Virus record (IMG/VR): IMGVR_UViG_3300044984_002334
Span: 1-59,189 of that record
Length of the DNA: 59,189 bases
Source: a virus
Reading direction: 5' to 3' (one strand)
Numbering within the stretch: position 1 is the first letter of the stretch; each line of letters opens with the position of its first letter. Under the pieces are notes generated by a model. It saw only the letters and a list, made by a program, of their open reading frames with translations, ran no database searches and was not told the DNA's origin. Of the stretch, positions 159 to 51,973 are shown piece after piece. The translations under genes and the position numbers were made by a program.

Positions 159-1124
159 ATGTTTGACTCCGATTTTGACCCATTCAGATTTATCCTAGAG
201 AACCAAGAATCCATTATAGAACACTTCTTCAATATTAAACTTGACGGTAAGAATATTATTTGCTTGTTTAGGGAAGACAAAAACCCAACTTGTGGATTTT
301 ATTATGCTAAAACTGGTAGGCTCTACTACCACGATTTTAAGACTGGAGATAACTTTGATGCTGTGGGAATGGTGATGAACTTGAAAAAGATTAATCGTTC
401 CCAAGCATTAAAATTAATATTAGATAATAAACAAAGATATACTAAGAAAGAAAAGAAAGCAGTGGAAGAAAGAATTTATTCCTACTTAGAACACGAAAAC
501 TTTTCGTACTTTGAGAAATATTATATAAGTAAGAGAACTTTAAATTACTTTAGAGTAAAAGCAATTAAAACGCTGTATATCAATGGTAATGTATACAAGA
601 GATGGAGAGATTTAAACCCAATTTTTAGTTACGGGTATTCTTCTAAGCGACAAAAGTTCTATCGACCAATAACTAAAAATGATGATAAATGGTTTGGAGA
701 TTCTAACCATGATGACGTATTCGGATTAGAACGCTTGCCTTGGGTAGGGCAAACAGTCATTATTACCTCCTCCGCTAAAGATACGATGGTACTTAAAGAG
801 CTTGGCTTCAATGCTATTAACTTTGACTCCGAAACTATCTCTTTACGAAACACTACTATTAAGTCCACTCTCTCGTCTCTTAAACGGAGATTCAAGTATC
901 TATTTGTATATATGGATAATGATGCTGCAGGACTAGCTACTAACAAGAAAATATCCGAATTTATAGGAGCTATGCCTTTAGTCAATCCTTACTCATTTAA
1001 AGATGTATCTGACCACTGCAAGCATTACGGATTAAAAACCACAAAACGTATGGTAGAGAAAATGATATCTAAACAAGTGAGAAACTATGTCATTCCAAAC
1101 GTCACATTCGATGTCCCATTTTAA
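159..1124 (+). CDS. DnaG/TOPRIM-type DNA primase
   Basis: A 321-aa protein with the layout of phage DnaG-like primases. The N-terminus has a CHC2-like region (CLFREDKNPTCGFYY, residues 35-49; LYYHDF and TGDNFD after it), which in this family helps bind template DNA. A TOPRIM core follows: strand VIITSSAKDTM (about 200-210), then FVYMDNDAAG (249-258), whose D253 and D255 would bind metal. The acidic residue normally at the end of the first TOPRIM strand is absent (Ser-Ser-Ala-Lys-Asp instead). That form occurs in related phage TOPRIM proteins, but it leaves catalysis less certain. It is the first complete gene of the plus-strand block and is followed by the glycosylase and nucleases, consistent with a role in replication priming. 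A non-catalytic primase relative is possible. Confidence 0.75.
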   Translation: MFDSDFDPFRFILENQESIIEHFFNIKLDGKNIICLFREDKNPTCGFYYAKTGRLYYHDFKTGDNFDAVGMVMNLKKINRSQALKLILDNKQRYTKKEKKAVEERIYSYLEHENFSYFEKYYISKRTLNYFRVKAIKTLYINGNVYKRWRDLNPIFSYGYSSKRQKFYRPITKNDDKWFGDSNHDDVFGLERLPWVGQTVIITSSAKDTMVLKELGFNAINFDSETISLRNTTIKSTLSSLKRRFKYLFVYMDNDAAGLATNKKISEFIGAMPLVNPYSFKDVSDHCKHYGLKTTKRMVEKMISKQVRNYVIPNVTFDVPF

Positions 1125-1140
1125 TTATAATAAACTACGC

Positions 1141-1839
1141 ATGACAAAAACAGAAATATTAATAGATAGAAATATCATATCTCCGGATTGGGCTGAAGCA
1201 ATACCAGAAGCATTTACTTATTTCTACGATAACATCGCTCCCGAGATAAAAACAAAAGCCCAAAAAGCTCCAGTATACCCAGAAGCACTCAGTATATTCC
1301 GTGCGTTTAAAGAATGTTCAGAAGATAAGGTAAAAGTAGTTATCATTGGACAGGATCCATACCATGATGGTAGCGCAATAGGAGTGTGTTTCGATAATCC
1401 TGTAAAAAGTAAAAAGGTTTCCCCGTCTTTACGGAACATCTTAATAGAGTTAGAAAGTGATTTAAATGGCTACTTAGAAGGTATAAAAAGAAAAGTTTCT
1501 TCTTCTTATTTAGAACACTTGCCAGCACAAGGAGTATTGCTACTAAATACAGCACTAAGTGTAGAACATGGCAAACCAAACTCTCACTCTGAACTTTGGG
1601 CACCATTTACTAAACAGATCATAGAACACTTGAATACTAAAAATGATATCATTTGGGTAATGTGGGGAAATTATGCAAAAAGCTACAAGAAAGTGATAAC
1701 GAACACAACTCATCATTTTATTGAGGGCGCACACCCATCTCCACTCAGTGCAAATCGAGCTGGATTCTTTGGTGGTAAATACTTCTCTAAAACAAATGAG
1801 ATTCTCAAATCACTCAAAAAGAAAGAAATTGTATGGTGA
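1141..1839 (+). CDS. ung: family-1 uracil-DNA glycosylase
   Basis: The enzyme removes uracil from DNA as the first step of base-excision repair. From the chosen start the protein has 232 residues, the usual family-1 size. The water-activating motif GQDPYH is at residues 70-75, with catalytic D72. The DNA-intercalating motif HPSPLSANRAGFFGG begins near residue 198 with the expected His. Both hallmarks are intact, so it is probably active. An earlier ATG at 1087 lies inside the primase gene. The ATG at 1141 falls 16 bases after the primase stop and gives the normal family N-terminus, so it is preferred. Several crAss-like phages carry such a gene. Its presence suggests this phage uses thymine DNA and benefits from removing deaminated cytosine. 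Confidence 0.93.
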   Translation: MTKTEILIDRNIISPDWAEAIPEAFTYFYDNIAPEIKTKAQKAPVYPEALSIFRAFKECSEDKVKVVIIGQDPYHDGSAIGVCFDNPVKSKKVSPSLRNILIELESDLNGYLEGIKRKVSSSYLEHLPAQGVLLLNTALSVEHGKPNSHSELWAPFTKQIIEHLNTKNDIIWVMWGNYAKSYKKVITNTTHHFIEGAHPSPLSANRAGFFGGKYFSKTNEILKSLKKKEIVW

Positions 1840-36264: not shown

Positions 36265-36693
36265 TCATGTAGTGATTTCAATATATATTTTCTCCTTTAA
36301 TAGTGTAGCCAGTAACAGTTTATACAACTTATTAAAGGTGCTTTTTGAGTTTATAATTTTAGACCCTACTTTATTACCTACAAGCAAGCAGCCAGATGAA
36401 TCAGCTTCAGTATTGCCAGGATGAATTCGAATTCCTTCAAACACAGGTACATTAAGTAAAAGTGGAAGAGCTCGTTTAAATCGGGGAGAGTGAGAAATGA
36501 TTACCTCATATACCCCGTAAGGAATAGCAGTTTCATGCTTTATTTTTAAAGACATTAACTGTTCTTTACTTTGCAACTTATTTAACCCTCTATCCTTATC
36601 TTCTAACACATCACAATAGAATTCGTTGTTTATATATAACTGACCTATTGTGTTTGTCTGGTTAAACTCAGTTCTTTTTAATGTTAACTCCAT
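36265..36693 (-). CDS. DUF5675 lysis-type protein (L,D-transpeptidase-like fold)
   Basis: A 142-aa protein with the hallmarks of DUF5675: an N-terminal ELTLKRTEFNQTNTIGQLYI, then FYCDVLEDKDRG, AIPYGVYEV, SPRFKRALPLL and the signature GIRIHPGNTEADSSGCLLVG (His...Gly-Cys, as in the YkuD catalytic centre). Family members are common in Bacteroidota phages and thought to act on the cell wall, but biochemical proof is limited. It starts inside the end of the 430-aa gene (10-base overlap) and is followed by a terminator, so it ends the fibre/lysis unit. No signal peptide, so a holin or other export route would be needed. Confidence 0.8.
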   Translation of the reverse strand: MELTLKRTEFNQTNTIGQLYINNEFYCDVLEDKDRGLNKLQSKEQLMSLKIKHETAIPYGVYEVIISHSPRFKRALPLLLNVPVFEGIRIHPGNTEADSSGCLLVGNKVGSKIINSKSTFNKLYKLLLATLLKEKIYIEITT

Positions 36694-37976: not shown

Positions 37977-38382
37977 AAGTAGTGTTATAAAGGTCTGTAT
38001 AGAGCGCGCACAGGTCTACACAAGAACAAGCGATACAAGAATTAGATGCAAGCAATGCTTGGTAATATAAAGTTTTTTCTAAGTCTTTAGTTTTATACCA
38101 AGTGACTGCGTCACAAATTGCCTCTCTTCCTACAAAATAGCAAACCTGCTCTACAATAATTGCACCTGTTGATGTAACGATAGTGAGTTTGAAAGAATAG
38201 ACAGAATCTACGTGCGGAGTAACTGAAGTAACGGCATACGTAGTTACATTTGTGCTGATTGTATAATTAGTGGGCACTGCTCCACAAGCATTAACTTCTA
38301 ACTTAACACTTTGATTTTCAGAGTTCATATTAGTAGAAGTTACTGTGAAGATAGTTCCGGCATTATTTAGAGTTACGACCAT
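37936..38382 (-). CDS. 148-aa tail protein with Cys-rich C-terminus
   Basis: Residues 1-85 form a beta-rich Ig-like module (VVTLNNAGTIFTVTSTNMN, VDSVYSFKLTIVTSTG). The last 36 residues contain nine Cys (SNSCIACSCVDLCALYTDLY followed by NTTCDDFKCTTCATCN), dense enough for a metal site or disulfide knot. It overlaps the 156-aa gene by 20 bases upstream and the 430-aa gene by 41 downstream. The two proteins share the 'Ig-like + Cys' flavour and may work as a pair on the tail. Function not known. Confidence 0.6.
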   Translation of the reverse strand: MVVTLNNAGTIFTVTSTNMNSENQSVKLEVNACGAVPTNYTISTNVTTYAVTSVTPHVDSVYSFKLTIVTSTGAIIVEQVCYFVGREAICDAVTWYKTKDLEKTLYYQALLASNSCIACSCVDLCALYTDLYNTTCDDFKCTTCATCN

Positions 38383-38833
38383 TTTTAATTTTCTTTGTTA
38401 TTAAGTACTGCGCAAGTAACGATACATATTCTATGAACTCCTCAGATTCTGTGTAAGCTCCTACGATATCTTTAATTTGTGCAACGTTATCTGTATTGTC
38501 ATCAGCCAAAACTTTAAAGATTTCTAAACGCAATCCTTCAGTACCGATCAAGATTTTAGACAAATTCTCATCTTTAATCATAAGAACTAACTGTGCAGTA
38601 GCTTCTTTTTCTAAAGTTATAAATGCTTCAGATGTAAGTGTTTGCTTTAAAATTTCTTTGATTTGCTCTTCATTATTAGGATTGCTATCAAGCAACGCAT
38701 CTGTAATTAAGCTAGCGCGATCAAATATAAGTTGAGTGGTTACAACAGCTGAAGTATTGTGTATGTGAGAAAGTATTTCGTTCTGAAATTTACCTATGCA
38801 GAACTTAAGAAGTTTTAAAAATAATTTTTTCAT
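38363..38833 (-). CDS. hypothetical helical protein in the lysis region
   Basis: A 156-aa protein with a basic amphipathic start (MKKLFLKLLKFCIGKFQNE) and an otherwise helical, acidic body (EEQIKEILKQTLTSEAF, DNVAQIKDIVGAYTESEEF). The ending IKNGRNSK is basic. The N-terminal helix might associate with membrane but is not a clean transmembrane segment. It overlaps the PAS-protein gene by 4 bases and lies in the same unit as the lysis-type enzyme. A role in lysis control is possible but unsupported by a motif. Confidence 0.5.
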   Translation of the reverse strand: MKKLFLKLLKFCIGKFQNEILSHIHNTSAVVTTQLIFDRASLITDALLDSNPNNEEQIKEILKQTLTSEAFITLEKEATAQLVLMIKDENLSKILIGTEGLRLEIFKVLADDNTDNVAQIKDIVGAYTESEEFIEYVSLLAQYLITKKIKNGRNSK

Positions 38834-39399
38834 TTTATGTGTGTTTTATTTATTGCAATACCACCTATTCCAACTATCTCTCCACCAACTTTACGTGGAT
38901 ACCTTATTACGTATAGATCTATTGTTTGATCTTTAATTTTAATCGTCTCTGTCAAAAATACAATTTCTTTGTGCGCTAATAAATCATTGACTTTAAAAGT
39001 TTCAGCTTCTTCTTTAGACCACAACTCTTCGTCTTTCTTACCTATGTAATCAGAAGATATTTTACCACGAGGTATAAGGAAAGCACTTTCATATGCTCGG
39101 TTTAAGGAAAGCATTGTTCCATCTCTATCTTTAATCCACATAGGAATTGGTAATTCCATATGAGCTGTTTCAAGTAAAACAAGTTTCACTTTAAATTCAT
39201 TTAGCATGTCTTCTAGATGATCTATCTTAATTTTTAAAGCTGTTTCTAAGTCTCTTAATCTTTGATTGTCATCTCTCCACAATTGTATGATAGCACTAAA
39301 ATCTTCCCTGCCTTCTTTTCGTTTTGCTAAATAAAGATTTACTATGGCTGCTAAACCCCCTCCACCTATAAATAGAAGTATATCTTTAAATACATCCAT
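38830..39399 (-). CDS. membrane-anchored coiled-coil protein with a PAS sensor domain
   Basis: A 189-aa protein in three parts. Residues 7-26 (ILLFIGGGGLAAIVNLYLAK) form one membrane helix. Residues about 40-80 are a coiled coil (QRLRDLETALKIKIDHLEDM). Residues about 80-189 read as a PAS domain: PIPMWIKDRDGTMLSLNRAY, YIGKKDEELWSKEEAE, FLTETIKIKDQT, YVIRYPRKVGGEIVGIGGIA and a final 'INKTHIK', matching the '...kD.dG.i..vN.a...', 'GK.d.el' and 'P..d..G.viGi.gia.DIT' blocks. PAS domains sense small ligands, redox state or light. Lying between fibre genes and a lysis-type enzyme, it could be a holin-like or regulatory sensor; that is inference. No kinase or other output domain is attached. Confidence 0.75.
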   Translation of the reverse strand: MDVFKDILLFIGGGGLAAIVNLYLAKRKEGREDFSAIIQLWRDDNQRLRDLETALKIKIDHLEDMLNEFKVKLVLLETAHMELPIPMWIKDRDGTMLSLNRAYESAFLIPRGKISSDYIGKKDEELWSKEEAETFKVNDLLAHKEIVFLTETIKIKDQTIDLYVIRYPRKVGGEIVGIGGIAINKTHIK

Positions 39400-40093: not shown

Positions 40094-41749
40094 TTAAAAA
40101 GTTGAAAGTGCTACTCGTTTCCATCCGGTGGACGCTTTGAAATAAATATAATCGTCATCTACGGACACGTCGCCCGCCGCGCCGTTTGCGTCTGCCGATC
40201 CAGTTGGGGTGTATTGAGTTACTAATCTTAACTGTGTATATCCGTTTGTACCTGTAATGGTGACGTTGGAAGTAGGGACCGTTGTGCTGCCAAATGCGGA
40301 TTTACCAACAAAATTATTTACCGCCGTCGTACCTGTTTGATATATTGCTTTTCTTGCAGTACCGCCTGTATTTGTTCCATCTGCTGAAATTTCTAAGGCC
40401 CGAAAGTCTGCCGATGCTGTTAGGATCGGATTTATAAATACGTTTCTAACTATACCCGATGCGCCACCGGTTTGATTTGTGGTTGTCGTTAATTGAATTT
40501 CACTGAAAGTACACGTGCCGGATGTTGGAGCAAAAATATTTGAAAAAAGTGTTCCGTATTTTGTGCCCGACGTTGTTGAAAAACTACTGTTTCCAATTCT
40601 TATACCAGTACCCGACGCGTTGTTACTTGAATTTAACACAATTGCCTGTGTGCTTGCGGCGCTCGTTGATATTGATATTGTGCCCGAACTATTGCCTAAT
40701 GTCAATGCTTGCGCACTATTCCCGATCGTAAAGCCTGCCGTTGTTGTGATACCTGTGTTAAGATATGATGCTGCGGATACTCCCGCGCTGCTGAATACCC
40801 TTAACCCTGATCCCGGACTAAAATTAAATTGTTCGACCAATGCTCCTGCATTATTAACAAGACTTATTCCAAGGTTACCCGTACGGCTCGCGTGTGTCGC
40901 TGTGCCCCATTTTGCAGATATTTGCGCGGCATCCTGATTGTCTGTTGTTGTTGTTTCCAGTTCAAACAGTAGCCCGGCTCCAAAATTATCGGCTGTGGTA
41001 CCGGTGCTATTTGCTTGAATAGTTAATGCCTCTTGCACCGTTGCCGTGTTTGCTGTGACAACCGTTTGCGTAATTGCACCGCCTGTTGTTGCCGCTCCTG
41101 CAATTGTTTGCCGAACCACGCCGTTTGTCTCAAACGAAAGTGCATTTGCATCGTTGGTTCCGATTAATACGGTTGTGCCTGTTGTGTTACCTCCGTTAAT
41201 AATATCCCCGGCCCCGCCTGTTATCGTCGTATTGGTTACGCTTGTTATACGCCCGTCCGCATCTACGGCAAAAACAGGCACCTGTGTTGCGCTTCCGTAT
41301 GTGGCGGCTGTTACCGTTGTGCTTTCCAATTCCGAACTTCCCACTGCGTTTGCTGCGATCTTTGCCGCTGTTACCGCGTCGTTTGCAATTGCCCAAGTTG
41401 TGCCTCCATCATTTACTGTAATATCACCTTTGCTACCATCGGTAATACCCCCACCAGATACTGTTGTATTAGTTACTGAAGTAATCTGGCCTTTAGCATT
41501 TACTGCGAACACAGGAATTTGAGAAGCTGAACCATAAGTGTTAGCTGTAACAGAAGTATTAGCTAACATTGTTGAAGAAACCCCATTAGACTTAATAGAA
41601 AGAATCTGACTATCAGTACCATTTCCTGAGAATATAGTTGTGTCTACGGTTATAGAATCGCTTTTAATTAAGTTTATTAACTCACTGTAAGATTGCGAAT
41701 AAACATTTGCTCCAAATAAAATGAAGCTGCATAAAATATAATTTTTCAT
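40094..41749 (-). CDS. mosaic tail-fibre/adhesin with signal peptide
   Basis: The start at 41749, two bases after the previous gene's stop, yields MKNYILCSFILFGANVYSQS, a Sec-type signal peptide with the Bacteroidota-like 'S-Q' cleavage region. An ATG at 41773 would bury it. The body is a beta-repeat fibre. It contains two copies of the fibre repeat 'VTAxTYGSAxQ(I/V)PVFAVxAxGxITSVTNTT', the first AT-rich at about 41550-41461, the second GC-rich at about 41313-41221. The C-terminus (YTQLRLVTQYTPTGSADANG, then a DDYIYFKASTGWKRVAL ending) is a common end of Bacteroidota fibres. From about 41400 down to the stop the DNA is clearly more GC-rich than the phage average. Likely receptor-binding or surface-binding protein. 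Confidence 0.75.
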   Translation of the reverse strand: MKNYILCSFILFGANVYSQSYSELINLIKSDSITVDTTIFSGNGTDSQILSIKSNGVSSTMLANTSVTANTYGSASQIPVFAVNAKGQITSVTNTTVSGGGITDGSKGDITVNDGGTTWAIANDAVTAAKIAANAVGSSELESTTVTAATYGSATQVPVFAVDADGRITSVTNTTITGGAGDIINGGNTTGTTVLIGTNDANALSFETNGVVRQTIAGAATTGGAITQTVVTANTATVQEALTIQANSTGTTADNFGAGLLFELETTTTDNQDAAQISAKWGTATHASRTGNLGISLVNNAGALVEQFNFSPGSGLRVFSSAGVSAASYLNTGITTTAGFTIGNSAQALTLGNSSGTISISTSAASTQAIVLNSSNNASGTGIRIGNSSFSTTSGTKYGTLFSNIFAPTSGTCTFSEIQLTTTTNQTGGASGIVRNVFINPILTASADFRALEISADGTNTGGTARKAIYQTGTTAVNNFVGKSAFGSTTVPTSNVTITGTNGYTQLRLVTQYTPTGSADANGAAGDVSVDDDYIYFKASTGWKRVALSTF

Positions 41750-41751
41750 AG

Positions 41752-44700
41752 TTATAATATTAAACGATACCATCTTAACCCATTTGTATTGTAAACATAA
41801 GAATACGTATCTCCTCCTTTTGCTGGGGAAGCAGGAACGCTGGCTTGATAAATAGTTTTACCTGCGCTAGCATTTATAGTTAAGGTGGTAATAAGGTTAG
41901 AACCTGTAGGTATAGTGCCACCAAAAACAATAGTAACAACTTGTCCTTCGTAAGGATTCGCTGGTAAGACAAATGTATGTGATGCTATAAGTGTTGGTAT
42001 ATTTATCACTACTCTTGAAATGTTATTTGCAAGTGACGTAGTTGCAGCTGAGGTTAAAGATGTGGCATAAAATGTAGTTCCTAAACTAACACCACTAGGT
42101 ATAGTTGCTATTCCTGTAGTTCCAGCTACTGTGACATATGGTGTTATAGTTCCAGTTCCAGATTGATATGACATTACCAAATTATCTAAGTTGTCATGTA
42201 AAAGACTCCAAGTATCTCCAGCACCATTAGTATTCAATAACAAAAGATTAGAGGCTGTATCAGCAACTGCATTACCCCGACCATCAATACGTATTGCTCC
42301 AGCAAATCTTGCATTTCCTTCTACACGTAATTTAACCGCAGCTAATACTGCAGCACCTATTGCAACATTAGTATTGTTAGTAACTATAGCGCTACTTCCT
42401 GCTATTGAAGTTCCGTTATAATATAACATTTGAGACGAACTACCGCCAATTAACGACGCTAAATTCGCATTCGTTGCGTTACTTATTGTAGCAACACCTG
42501 CTGTAACATTATTATATAAAAAACCTGAACTTAAAGCTCCTAGGTTTTGCTCATTAGTTAAAGTAGGTTCTGAAGTAGAAGTAACAAAAGATAATCCTGT
42601 ACCTACACCACCTCCTGTAGGATTTTTAGGTTCCCAGATAGAAGTTGTATTATTCCATGCAATTACTTGACCGTCTGTAGGAAGAACTGTACTGAGTGCT
42701 CTTGTAGCTAACCTAGTATCTACATAACCTTTATCAGTTAAAGATCTATTTGTGTAACCAGTTTTATAATCAGCTGCATATTGTAATCCTTTAGAAGTAG
42801 CCCTATTATCTGTTACAATCATATCTCCTGTACTATTATTCAATTCTAGTTGGATGTTATCACCAAATACATTCCAACTAGCTGTGCCAGTTAGTGAAAA
42901 TGATGTTACTCCACCTGTTATCGTATTTACTGTGATACCATTTCCATAATCATTTATAGATCCATCTTCTAAGGAGTTGCCACCTAAAGCAACTTTTGGT
43001 ATTCTATTTACCGTAAGTGTTGAAGTTTTACCAATTTTATTATTGAACGTTGACCAATCTGTGCTGTTTAATGCACCACGAGCAGTTGCCGATGCAGTTG
43101 GTAAATTAAATGTATGTGAATTGGATGCAGAATTAATTACAAAATCTGTTCCAGAAGTACCTGTAACTAATGTTTGCGCGTTTCCAGTTAAGGAATTCAA
43201 AGAAGTTAAGGCATTAGCACTAACAGTTAATGTGTTAGAAGCTGCAAAATAAGTTGTTCCAATAATACCAGATCCGTTAACAGTTAAAGTTTGCCCACCT
43301 AAATTCTCAGAATTAGTGCCATCTGTTAGTGTAAGATTTTCATTTGTTACACTACCATCCACCTCTGTACCAGTTACAATTATAGTACCAGCCGATTGAG
43401 TAACTGCATTAATGCCAGCCCCTGCAATTGTAGCAGTACCGCCTCCAGTTCCTGATATTGCGTTAAGTGACAGTATTCCGGTTGCTACACCTGTTACTGT
43501 CAGCGTTTGTGCCTCATTTGTTATGCTACCATCTACTTCCGTTGCCGTTATGGTAATCGTGCCTCCATTTGCAGATATTGTTTCTGCAATAGCATTAATG
43601 CCAGCGGCGTTGATTGTTACACCTGTTGCACCCGACGTGTTGGAGGTAATTACCGAAGAAGCGGCACCACCAGCGCCTACTCCTATTAATCCCTCGTTAG
43701 TTACGCTACCATCTACCTCCGTTCCTGTTATGGTGAAATTAGGATACGTGCCGGTTGCTACATTAATACCAGCCCCTGTAATTGCGACTGTTTGGTCGGG
43801 TGCTGTATTTGTTATTGTTGCAATACCGTCTAATGTTGTTCCTGTTGTTGCAATTCCTATTCCGGTGCCCTCGGCTAACTGTAGAGAACCTCCGGTATTG
43901 CTAAGTGTAACAGTATGAGTAGTTGCGTTTGAGGTGTTTGCAAGTGTTTGCAGTTCCAGTGTGGCCGGGTCGAGTGTGGAGCGCACTGCTATGCCGGAAG
44001 CGTCGAGTTGTAGCAGGCGGTTTCCTGTGCCGGATAGGTTGTCGAAGATTACGGCGCGGTCGTCTCTGACGGAAAAGGCTAATTGACTACTGCTATTCCG
44101 CATGCGAACGGAATAAGTAGACGAGGTACTACCAGTGCCTGTTACAGTCATCTTATTATTACTGTTGGGAGTGCTTCCTACGCCTGTATTACCTTTTAGG
44201 TAGTTATTATTCGTAGATACATCTGAATATAAAAAGTATTTGCTCCCTGTTACAGACGATAAGTTAAGGTTATCAAATACGCCATACTGATTCACAACAG
44301 ACCCTCCAGAATTTGTCGCGCCTTCCAATAGTAACCCGTATAAATTTGATGTTGTTGTACCCGCTCCGTTGGTTGCCATATATGCCCTATATCCTGTTTG
44401 TGTATTTCCAGTTAGCCGCGAATTAATTATAAGCGCATTAATGCCGTAAGCGGTTTTTGACTCCTTAACCTCTAACTCTATACCATATCCGGTGTTCCAT
44501 CTGCCTGTACTATTATCGAGCACACGCGCATTTATGCCGCGCGCTGTATGAGCATCCCGCGTATCACTATATCTGTTAACGTCGAACTGTAGTCCATTGC
44601 AATACTGAACATCGCCCGTCGTTGCAAAGTTATTAATAACGCCAAACACTCCTCTAATACCTAATGCTGTACCGGAATTATTTGTAGTAGTACTTTGGAA

Positions 44701-46620
44701 TCCAGCTGTGTTGATGTTTACGGTTTCAACTGGAATTATAACGTCTGATTTCATTCCGTATGCAAACAAAGATGACGGTGCGCCAGTAGAGCCTAATGTT
44801 ATACTGCTGTTATATCCATTTATATTTGTATTACTCGTGGACGATGTTCCTGAATATACTACTCTGTTAAGATATGTATTAGCACTTATAATGCCTGAAC
44901 TTTGGTGAACGTAGGTGCCGTCCGTGTAAATGGAATTGTTGCCTAATCCCGGAGTTATCCGTAGCCCCGTACCGTTATAAGTGAAATTTGCATTACTTGT
45001 AATAGAATTAACATTATTCCAGTACGCCACACGTTCATTGCTCCCGCTGCCCGTTACCCCTCCGCCAGCCGTAATATCTGCCGCCACCAACCCCCGAAAC
45101 GCCGGAGTAGCAAGACCACCAGAAGTTGGCCCAGCGAATACTGTATTGGCCGACTGCGTGAATAGTGCCGTTGCTAACGTGCCGGAGCCTGTAACAGGCG
45201 AACCTGACACCGAAAAAATGGACGGCATGGTAAGTCCCACACTTGTAACTGTACCAACCGGTGCAGTAATCCATGAAGGAGAGGTCCCGTTAGTGGATAG
45301 TATTTTCCCAGTGTTGCCAGTCTGGGTGGGCAATTCTATTTCGTTGGTGATACTGCTATCTGCAACTGTACTATTTTGCCACCACTTACTAGCACTATTA
45401 TATGTCAAAACCTGCCCATTGGTCGGACTTGTCAACTTAACGTCGTGTAACTCGTTTAACCCTTCGCCGTTTTGCACATTTGCGTATATGATACCTACAG
45501 CCGCATGCTGTCTAACACAATACCCTACTATCACCTCATGATTAGGCGCTGTTGGAAGGGTAGCGGTTATGCCGCCGGGAACGGTTGGTGAAAGATACAA
45601 AGGTGCGCCCTCCGGGAATGCCGACGTATTAAGACCTCTTACCAGCCCCTCCGTTGTTACATATCCCTCCTGATTATTTGCAATATTTTCTGTTGCAATA
45701 CCCAATACAGTATTGGTTGTGCTGTCACTGCTTGCGCTTGCAATTCTGACCGCTATTCGATTACCCTGCGCCCCTGATACGTAAACTACCTGGCCATTAT
45801 TTATCGTTGTACCGGATTTATTGACCACCCGTGCAAGTGATTCCTGACCGACCTGCAATGTAACATTTCCGCCTTTCATACCCAAGTCAAGGGTGCCGTC
45901 TGTATCGTTCCATCGAAAAGTGCCGATACCGCCGGGCAAAGTTGGTAACGTGTTGAATGATAATCGGTCGAGCGTGTCAATCCTGATAACAGTACCGTCT
46001 ATTGCAATTCCTTCACCGGCCGTGTAAGAAGTGCCGCCCCCGCTACCACTGGCTATCCAAATAGTTCCATTAGATCTATAAATTTGTCCAAAAGAGTTTT
46101 TCCAAAGTTCTCCTTGTTTGCCAACTGCTGTTACAGCTGGCTGCACTCCTTCCGCTCCTATATAGTCAGTTATCTCTTTTGCATCTTTTATATATTTATC
46201 GACTTGAATAACTAATCTGTTCCGTATAAGAGAAGCTAAGTCGTTCCTCAAAGAAGAAGGAAAAGAAGGAAGTTTATAAAATGTAGATGGATGTATAATT
46301 GCTGCCTCTCCATATGGGACATCTGGAGCAATATCAGAAAACACTTCCATTTCTAGTATAGAACCAGAAGCAAGTATAATACTTGTGACTGTGAATATAG
46401 AAAGATTAGGTCCGTCTAATGTATATAAAGAATCATTAATAGAAACTGAAGTGGCATCAAAAGCACCTAAGTCATCTCCAGTAATTCCAGTAATGTTAAA
46501 ATAACCTCCTCCTGTGCGAGCCACAGTAGTAATTTCATATCTCATTATAGGATTAATGGGAACTTGAGCATTTGTTGAAAATATACAAAAAATCCCAAAT
46601 ACTAAAAGTAAAACTCTCAT
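41752..46620 (-). CDS. 1622-aa mosaic tail fibre with signal peptide
   Basis: N-terminal MRVLLLVFGIFCIFSTNAQ is a canonical Bacteroidota signal peptide ending NAQ. The chain then shows fibre modules: GELWKNSFGQIYRSNGTIWI, a 'NNGQVVYVSGAQGN...GIATENIANNQEGYVTTEG' domain known from phage tail proteins, then VTSVGLTMPSIFSVSGSPVT and AFRGLVAADI repeats, and three TEVDGS(V/I)TNE units about 59 residues apart. The C-terminus (about 41760-42600) is a surface-protein type beta domain (KTIYQASVPASPAKGGDTYS, YNTNGLRWYRLIL). DNA is AT-rich at both ends and GC-rich between about 43440 and 46070. Probably the main receptor-binding fibre, or a host surface protein captured by the phage. Confidence 0.8.
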   Translation of the reverse strand: MRVLLLVFGIFCIFSTNAQVPINPIMRYEITTVARTGGGYFNITGITGDDLGAFDATSVSINDSLYTLDGPNLSIFTVTSIILASGSILEMEVFSDIAPDVPYGEAAIIHPSTFYKLPSFPSSLRNDLASLIRNRLVIQVDKYIKDAKEITDYIGAEGVQPAVTAVGKQGELWKNSFGQIYRSNGTIWIASGSGGGTSYTAGEGIAIDGTVIRIDTLDRLSFNTLPTLPGGIGTFRWNDTDGTLDLGMKGGNVTLQVGQESLARVVNKSGTTINNGQVVYVSGAQGNRIAVRIASASSDSTTNTVLGIATENIANNQEGYVTTEGLVRGLNTSAFPEGAPLYLSPTVPGGITATLPTAPNHEVIVGYCVRQHAAVGIIYANVQNGEGLNELHDVKLTSPTNGQVLTYNSASKWWQNSTVADSSITNEIELPTQTGNTGKILSTNGTSPSWITAPVGTVTSVGLTMPSIFSVSGSPVTGSGTLATALFTQSANTVFAGPTSGGLATPAFRGLVAADITAGGGVTGSGSNERVAYWNNVNSITSNANFTYNGTGLRITPGLGNNSIYTDGTYVHQSSGIISANTYLNRVVYSGTSSTSNTNINGYNSSITLGSTGAPSSLFAYGMKSDVIIPVETVNINTAGFQSTTTNNSGTALGIRGVFGVINNFATTGDVQYCNGLQFDVNRYSDTRDAHTARGINARVLDNSTGRWNTGYGIELEVKESKTAYGINALIINSRLTGNTQTGYRAYMATNGAGTTTSNLYGLLLEGATNSGGSVVNQYGVFDNLNLSSVTGSKYFLYSDVSTNNNYLKGNTGVGSTPNSNNKMTVTGTGSTSSTYSVRMRNSSSQLAFSVRDDRAVIFDNLSGTGNRLLQLDASGIAVRSTLDPATLELQTLANTSNATTHTVTLSNTGGSLQLAEGTGIGIATTGTTLDGIATITNTAPDQTVAITGAGINVATGTYPNFTITGTEVDGSVTNEGLIGVGAGGAASSVITSNTSGATGVTINAAGINAIAETISANGGTITITATEVDGSITNEAQTLTVTGVATGILSLNAISGTGGGTATIAGAGINAVTQSAGTIIVTGTEVDGSVTNENLTLTDGTNSENLGGQTLTVNGSGIIGTTYFAASNTLTVSANALTSLNSLTGNAQTLVTGTSGTDFVINSASNSHTFNLPTASATARGALNSTDWSTFNNKIGKTSTLTVNRIPKVALGGNSLEDGSINDYGNGITVNTITGGVTSFSLTGTASWNVFGDNIQLELNNSTGDMIVTDNRATSKGLQYAADYKTGYTNRSLTDKGYVDTRLATRALSTVLPTDGQVIAWNNTTSIWEPKNPTGGGVGTGLSFVTSTSEPTLTNEQNLGALSSGFLYNNVTAGVATISNATNANLASLIGGSSSQMLYYNGTSIAGSSAIVTNNTNVAIGAAVLAAVKLRVEGNARFAGAIRIDGRGNAVADTASNLLLLNTNGAGDTWSLLHDNLDNLVMSYQSGTGTITPYVTVAGTTGIATIPSGVSLGTTFYATSLTSAATTSLANNISRVVINIPTLIASHTFVLPANPYEGQVVTIVFGGTIPTGSNLITTLTINASAGKTIYQASVPASPAKGGDTYSYVYNTNGLRWYRLIL

Positions 46621-51376: not shown

Positions 51377-51973
51377 CTAATATTTTTCTATATTTCTATA
51401 AGAAGTTAAACGCTTTAACCAAGCTTCGAACTCAGTTATAGTAGAAGCATTTTTAGCCCAATTGCAATGTTTACAACAAGTAACGATGTTATTAACAGAA
51501 TAACTCTTTGCAGAATCTACCCTATCTAAACCATTGTAATTAAAATTACAAGCGTAGTTAGCTTTAAAGCAATTTGAAGGTGGCGAACCACAATAGTGAC
51601 AAGATTTACTGGTATAATCTAAGAAGACATCTTTTGTAATTTCTACATTAATCCTTCTTCGGTTAGCCCCAGCTAAAAATTTTTGATACAGATTATTTTT
51701 AAATCCTCCACAATCAGGAAGTGTATTTCCAGAACCTGTTTTAGATGTCGTTTCTTTTCTGTAGCATCCGCATGATGTTATTAAACCAGCCTTTACATCT
51801 TTAGGTCTCAACACCACTTTTCTCCCGCAATCACAAGTAAACTCATAAGCTGTGCGTTTTCTACTTCCTTCTATAAAATACCCTACTAAATTATTAACTG
51901 TTAATCTACCGTATTTAGAATTACCCCAGATAATCCTATCTTGGTATGACGGATCTCTAACTAGCTTTGTCAT
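51377..51973 (-). CDS. free-standing HNH homing endonuclease
   Basis: A 198-aa protein with two zinc-binding parts. Residues about 46-72 (FTCDCGRKVVLRPKDVKAGL then ITSCGCYRK) are the Cys-rich N-terminal module found in many phage HNH proteins. Residues about 122-185 hold the HNH nuclease: CHYCG, GLDRVDSAKSYSVNNIV and CCKHCNWAK, where the DRVD/N/H-type residues and the paired CxxC sites build the beta-beta-alpha-metal core. It lies 3 bases after the major capsid gene and before the 65-aa gene, so it interrupts the structural string without breaking any gene. Such enzymes cut near-identical sites in rival phages and spread with their flanks. Confidence 0.88.
   Translation of the reverse strand: MTKLVRDPSYQDRIIWGNSKYGRLTVNNLVGYFIEGSRKRTAYEFTCDCGRKVVLRPKDVKAGLITSCGCYRKETTSKTGSGNTLPDCGGFKNNLYQKFLAGANRRRINVEITKDVFLDYTSKSCHYCGSPPSNCFKANYACNFNYNGLDRVDSAKSYSVNNIVTCCKHCNWAKNASTITEFEAWLKRLTSYRNIEKY

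Follow-up and report, generated by a model that had tools for sequence, protein, structure and literature searches.

A membrane-anchored PAS protein recurrently encoded near lysis genes in Crassvirales and other Bacteroidota phages

A viral DNA stretch of 59,189 nucleotides (IMG/VR record IMGVR_UViG_3300044984_002334, positions 1 to 59,189, called the window below) encodes a small protein that joins a membrane helix and a coiled coil to a PAS domain. What could such a protein do in a phage? The window is a fragment of a Crassvirales genome. It contains CrAss_Ring_1 and CrAss_Ring_2 (Pfam), and its capsid protein, a 489-aa ORF, is 54% identical to a protein of contig L008 that matches Crass_capsid.

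The PAS gene starts with ATG (Table 1). The initial annotation had described a membrane helix, a coiled coil and a PAS domain without output domain in 189 residues. This was confirmed by hydropathy, AlphaFold2, PAS_4 matches and fold searches, and the gene was placed on the minus strand. A single strong membrane helix is found. The AlphaFold2 model, based on 16 relatives, consists of helix 3-26, helix 32-81 and a PAS domain with a five-stranded antiparallel sheet and flanking helices. The pLDDT is about 90 over residues 81-180; the membrane helix is modelled with low confidence (about 50). The PAS domain is the last part of the protein, and no kinase, cyclase, HTH or other output domain was found by domain searches or in the model. 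Lysine and arginine are more frequent after the helix than before it in all 15 helix-bearing members, and thus the PAS domain should face the cytoplasm. The predicted topology is therefore N-terminus outside, C-terminus and PAS domain inside.

Table 1. Positions of the PAS gene, the parts of its product and the neighbouring genes in the window
Feature	Position	Strand	Basis or remark
TM - coiled coil - PAS protein, 189 aa	38830..39399	-	ORF and translation, relatives, model
Gly-rich membrane helix, residues 7-25	39325..39381	-	mean hydropathy 2.03; positive-inside count
Long coiled-coil-type helix, residues 32-81	39157..39306	-	AlphaFold2; profile resembles many solved coiled coils
PAS domain, residues 84-185	38845..39150	-	PAS_4 in 14/16 members; fold searches
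Helical ORF, 156 aa, 4-bp overlap with PAS ORF	38363..38833	-	unit membership uncertain
DUF5675 protein	36265..36693	-	Pfam E 4.6e-31; probable endolysin by position in relatives

The window protein taken alone matches Pfam PAS_4 (PF08448) with E 3.8e-4 and 21.1 bits, under the curated cut-off of 23.1; the best match among the aligned members has E 8e-11. The matches of both Foldseek and VIA-align are PAS domains, with the solved domains of BvgS, VqmA, NifL and PYP filling the searches. The best Foldseek match is BvgS (6zj8, E 1.7e-7), and VIA-align Z-scores reach 13.8. Judging by the model, residues ~84-185 are a genuine PAS fold, in agreement with the PAS-like structure that the initial annotation had expected. 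Fourteen positions are invariant in the aligned set, nearly all of them inside the PAS domain. However, no Cys-rich column that could provide the flavin-binding cysteine of LOV domains was observed within the PAS domain of the aligned members (at most 6%). Nor was a heme-binding histidine observed there, as the sole His-rich column, residue 80, precedes the domain. The absence of conserved Cys or His in the PAS core argues against a LOV or heme PAS domain, but the domain may bind a ligand of another kind. The match to VqmA is no argument for or against the autoinducer DPO as a ligand, since the shared motif looks general to PAS_4.

Relatives were found in 17 viral contigs and several isolated phages, nearly all of the same layout. 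The contigs were collected from IMG/VR by an alignment scan, and one of them, L021, is phage phi14:2 itself. The alignment was needed, as a scan of viral contigs with the single protein gave no relative; repeat scans with other alignments gave no additional contigs. No relatives were found in the bacterial genome collection, in scans resting on a few short patterns. Tblastn against phage records identified g078 of phi14:2 (E 1e-17), proteins of two Chryseobacterium jumbo phages and, weakly, of Brevundimonas jumbo phages. The record of phi14:2, itself a Crassvirales phage, annotates g078 only as 'PAS fold protein'; it is homologous to the window protein along the membrane helix, coiled coil and PAS domain (30% identity). 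The N-terminal membrane helix is present in 15 of the 16 aligned sequences. The exception is L022, where the PAS domain has an ORF of its own and the small protein encoded next to it has a C-terminus that is hydrophobic and rich in Gly. In the Brevundimonas jumbo phages (L005, 5941-6871; L006, 5875-6790) an ORF that encodes only PAS overlaps one that encodes a coiled coil and a C-terminal membrane helix: the same parts are split between two genes, far from the lysins. The N-terminal half without PAS, used as a query, retrieved only phi14:2 itself and one weak match in an Enterococcus phage, and thus a PAS-less sister family is not demonstrated.

A fold search of predicted viral structures added diverged forms in the Cellulophaga phages phi18:3 and phi19:1, whose genes were assigned to the fold matches from their length and the character of their sequence. 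The phi18:3 protein, used as a tblastn query, then gave Ingeline and phiSM/phi38:2. Homology of the diverged Cellulophaga forms is supported by profile comparison along the entire PAS domain (E 2e-8, 4e-10 for the pair). Much of their PAS_4 signature is gone, while the position in the cassette is kept.

The genes around the PAS gene were compared in loci recruited by the PAS protein alone. At nine independent loci the PAS gene has a gene for a wall hydrolase (GH19, GH108, M15) or a DUF5675 protein at most two genes away: GH19 in phi14:2, DUF5675 in L019, L020 and Ingeline, GH108 in L022, L023, phi18:3 and MA9V, and M15 in phiSM/phi38:2. These phages are unrelated, and the homologues next to endolysins of Bacteroidota phages that the initial annotation had proposed to look for do exist. 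A truncated M15-like start lies near the PAS gene of L012. A GH19 search of the contigs produced no matches, and neither did its control. Ranking of the distance between the PAS and endolysin genes in seven complete genomes gave Fisher's combined P = 7e-5, for a set of not fully independent genomes that includes one Brevundimonas phage and, at a distance of five genes, phi19:1.

Other candidate lysis genes are found at the same loci. In the four Cellulophaga phages reached via the fold search, the PAS protein is encoded amid holin-like proteins and an endolysin, with spanin-like genes in three of them. Multi-TM holin-like genes adjoin the PAS gene or lie near it in phiSM, phi18:3, phi19:1 and Ingeline. 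An overlapping i-/o-spanin-like pair follows in phiSM and phi18:3; its place in Ingeline is taken by a lipobox-plus-TM protein, listed as a unimolecular spanin in a published survey that names no endolysin there (PMC8776804). In L007, a relative of the window, the PAS gene is directly followed by a two-TM gene weakly similar to Phage_holin_1 (E 0.0075, below the cut-off). Related TM proteins of the phrog_3342 kind are encoded next to the PAS gene in L015 and L017, and in Flavobacterium phage lillamy a phrog_3342-like protein precedes a gene annotated as PF05105 (holin family) and an amidase. The PAS gene overlaps the next gene by 4 bp in the window and in phi14:2, by 14 bp in phiSM and by 17 bp in L020, suggesting coupled translation.

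However, there are counter-examples. The PAS gene adjoins the major capsid gene in L008 and L009, which are closely related to the window, and in L010 and L013/L016/L018 it lies among head genes. No hydrolase is encoded beside it in L011, L014 and L015. The amidase-like gene of the L007 contig is far from the PAS gene, and some 39 kb separate the Brevundimonas PAS ORFs from the lysins. The lysis link is thus a strong tendency, not a rule.

In phi14:2 g078 is directly upstream of the GH19 endolysin, whereas in the window the 156-aa ORF, for which no relatives were found, comes next. This is the basic helical protein noticed initially. The DUF5675 gene, reported with it as a near neighbour, is present; however, it is the fourth gene downstream and not adjacent. 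No other hydrolase-like gene is nearer. Between identical flanks in phi14:2 and L019 (PAS before, phrog_25644 after) GH19 is swapped for DUF5675, and thus DUF5675 is probably an endolysin. The gene positions in Ingeline, L019 and L020 agree with the DUF5675 family probably being a wall hydrolase. A structure prediction for DUF5675 from three sequences had pLDDT 40, and its profile matched no relative among solved structures. Apart from the PAS protein, no small membrane protein is encoded in the window's late block, which makes it the only small holin-type candidate of this fragment; the argument is weak given that the fragment is incomplete.

Several other ORFs of the window deserve mention. 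Two fibre-like ORFs, 41752-46620 (-) and 40094-41773 (-), have Sec-signal-like hydrophobic N-termini, which is odd for tail fibres. A Cys-rich, HNH-like ORF, 51377-51973 (-), between the capsid gene and a 333-aa gene, occupies the exact spot of the PAS gene in the sister phages L008 and L009. The product of 1087-1839 (+) is presumably a uracil-DNA glycosylase, from its GQDPYHDG motif.

The best explanation seems to be that the PAS protein is the membrane protein of a Bacteroidota phage lysis cassette, gated by the PAS domain and coiled coil: it would be the holin or else, like an antiholin, a partner that regulates the holin. We consider the chances of this to be about even. Of the holin traits, the membrane helix is present in the protein, and adjacency to an endolysin is seen in many relatives and absent in the window. 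The PAS protein matches no holin profile in Pfam or PHROGs, which says little since holins are so diverse. The argument for lysis is one of synteny only; sensing, a ligand and a direction of control are inferred. The initial annotation had proposed a sensor of host energy, redox or ligand state that times lysis or controls superinfection. This proposal is supported in part, for the membrane-anchored architecture and the link to lysis genes, while such sensing and either kind of control would be hypothetical.

Such a protein could work as follows. Its gene sits in the late block. The product would insert so that its short N-terminus is outside and its other two parts, coiled coil and PAS domain, are cytoplasmic, and it would dimerise via these two parts. 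The glycine-rich membrane helices would pack against each other, with the PAS domain and coiled coil gating their assembly. The state of the PAS domain, set by a bound small molecule or by mechanical strain, could reach the membrane helix via the coiled coil, shifting the moment at which the membrane opens for the endolysin. The more specific version, in which the cytoplasmic PAS domain of a holin or antiholin binds a host metabolite or signal and sets the lysis time directly, without transcription, in lytic and temperate Bacteroidota phages, is a tentative possibility.

The PAS domain might instead be a mere oligomerisation module of a lysis membrane protein that senses nothing, such as a holin or a tether of the endolysin or spanin. 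This is doubtful, but it is a serious rival, as no ligand is known for the PAS domain of BvgS, the closest structure by Foldseek, and a mechanical mode of action has been proposed for it (PMC3726324). An oligomerisation module would fit the PAS core, in which neither His nor Cys is conserved, and also the Cellulophaga forms, which remain in the cassette despite the erosion of the PAS_4 signature. However, so many invariant positions within the PAS domain seem excessive for a dimer interface.

Two further possibilities place the protein outside lysis. The location of the gene differs between sister phages, the fibre region in the window and the capsid region in L008, and the Brevundimonas PAS ORFs are away from the lysins, as might be expected of a membrane-anchored host-takeover or superinfection-exclusion protein merely travelling in the late region. 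That the gene is found time and again near endolysins, which belong to four unrelated classes, makes this improbable. Still less probable is a minor virion or ejection protein. Indeed, the PAS gene is located among structural genes in the window, L008, L010 and L013, but g078 of phi14:2 has no mass-spectrometry note, whereas g071, g072, g074, g080, g081, g083 and g085 have one.

Individual aspects of a PAS-gated holin or antiholin have known parallels. Control of lysis by a phage PAS domain is known from VqmA of vibriophage VP882, a quorum-sensing receptor (PMC8284805, PMC10426928). The VqmA PAS fold is similar to that of the window protein (7dwm, VIA-align Z 12.2), and among solved structures V. 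cholerae VqmA is the one that the profile matches best in sequence (E 1e-3). However, VqmA is a cytosolic DNA-binding protein with an HTH domain following PAS, whereas the window protein lacks an HTH and carries a membrane helix. The PAS domain of BvgS is cytoplasmic, with flanking helices that stabilise the dimer, and relays the signal to a kinase; the window protein lacks an output domain. Sensing-based lysis timing is known as well: the antiholin RI of T4, acting with the holin T, is a membrane-associated sensor that shifts the lysis time (PMC11413866). The window protein would be similar in working if the holin or antiholin reading is right. However, RI is periplasmic and unrelated in sequence, whereas the soluble part of the window protein has a PAS fold and is predicted to be cytoplasmic from positive-inside counts.

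In the openly accessible papers searched, we found no description of this PAS family or of a membrane-anchored PAS protein in a lysis cassette. To our knowledge, the sensing by which phages set lysis takes place at the membrane or in the periplasm (T4 RI with T) or works through transcription (VqmA, arbitrium). If a PAS domain is indeed part of the lysis machinery, it would be a direct post-translational sensor. The PAS reading is testable in the cultured phages phi14:2, phiSM and phi18:3, and for the DUF5675 family, so far unassigned, gene order suggests that the proteins are likely endolysins. Judging from gene content and order, Bacteroidota phages may tune the moment of lysis through a built-in PAS switch. 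If so, this would offer a way into the control of lysis in Crassvirales, a group for which neither the timing of lysis nor the long persistence in the gut is well understood.
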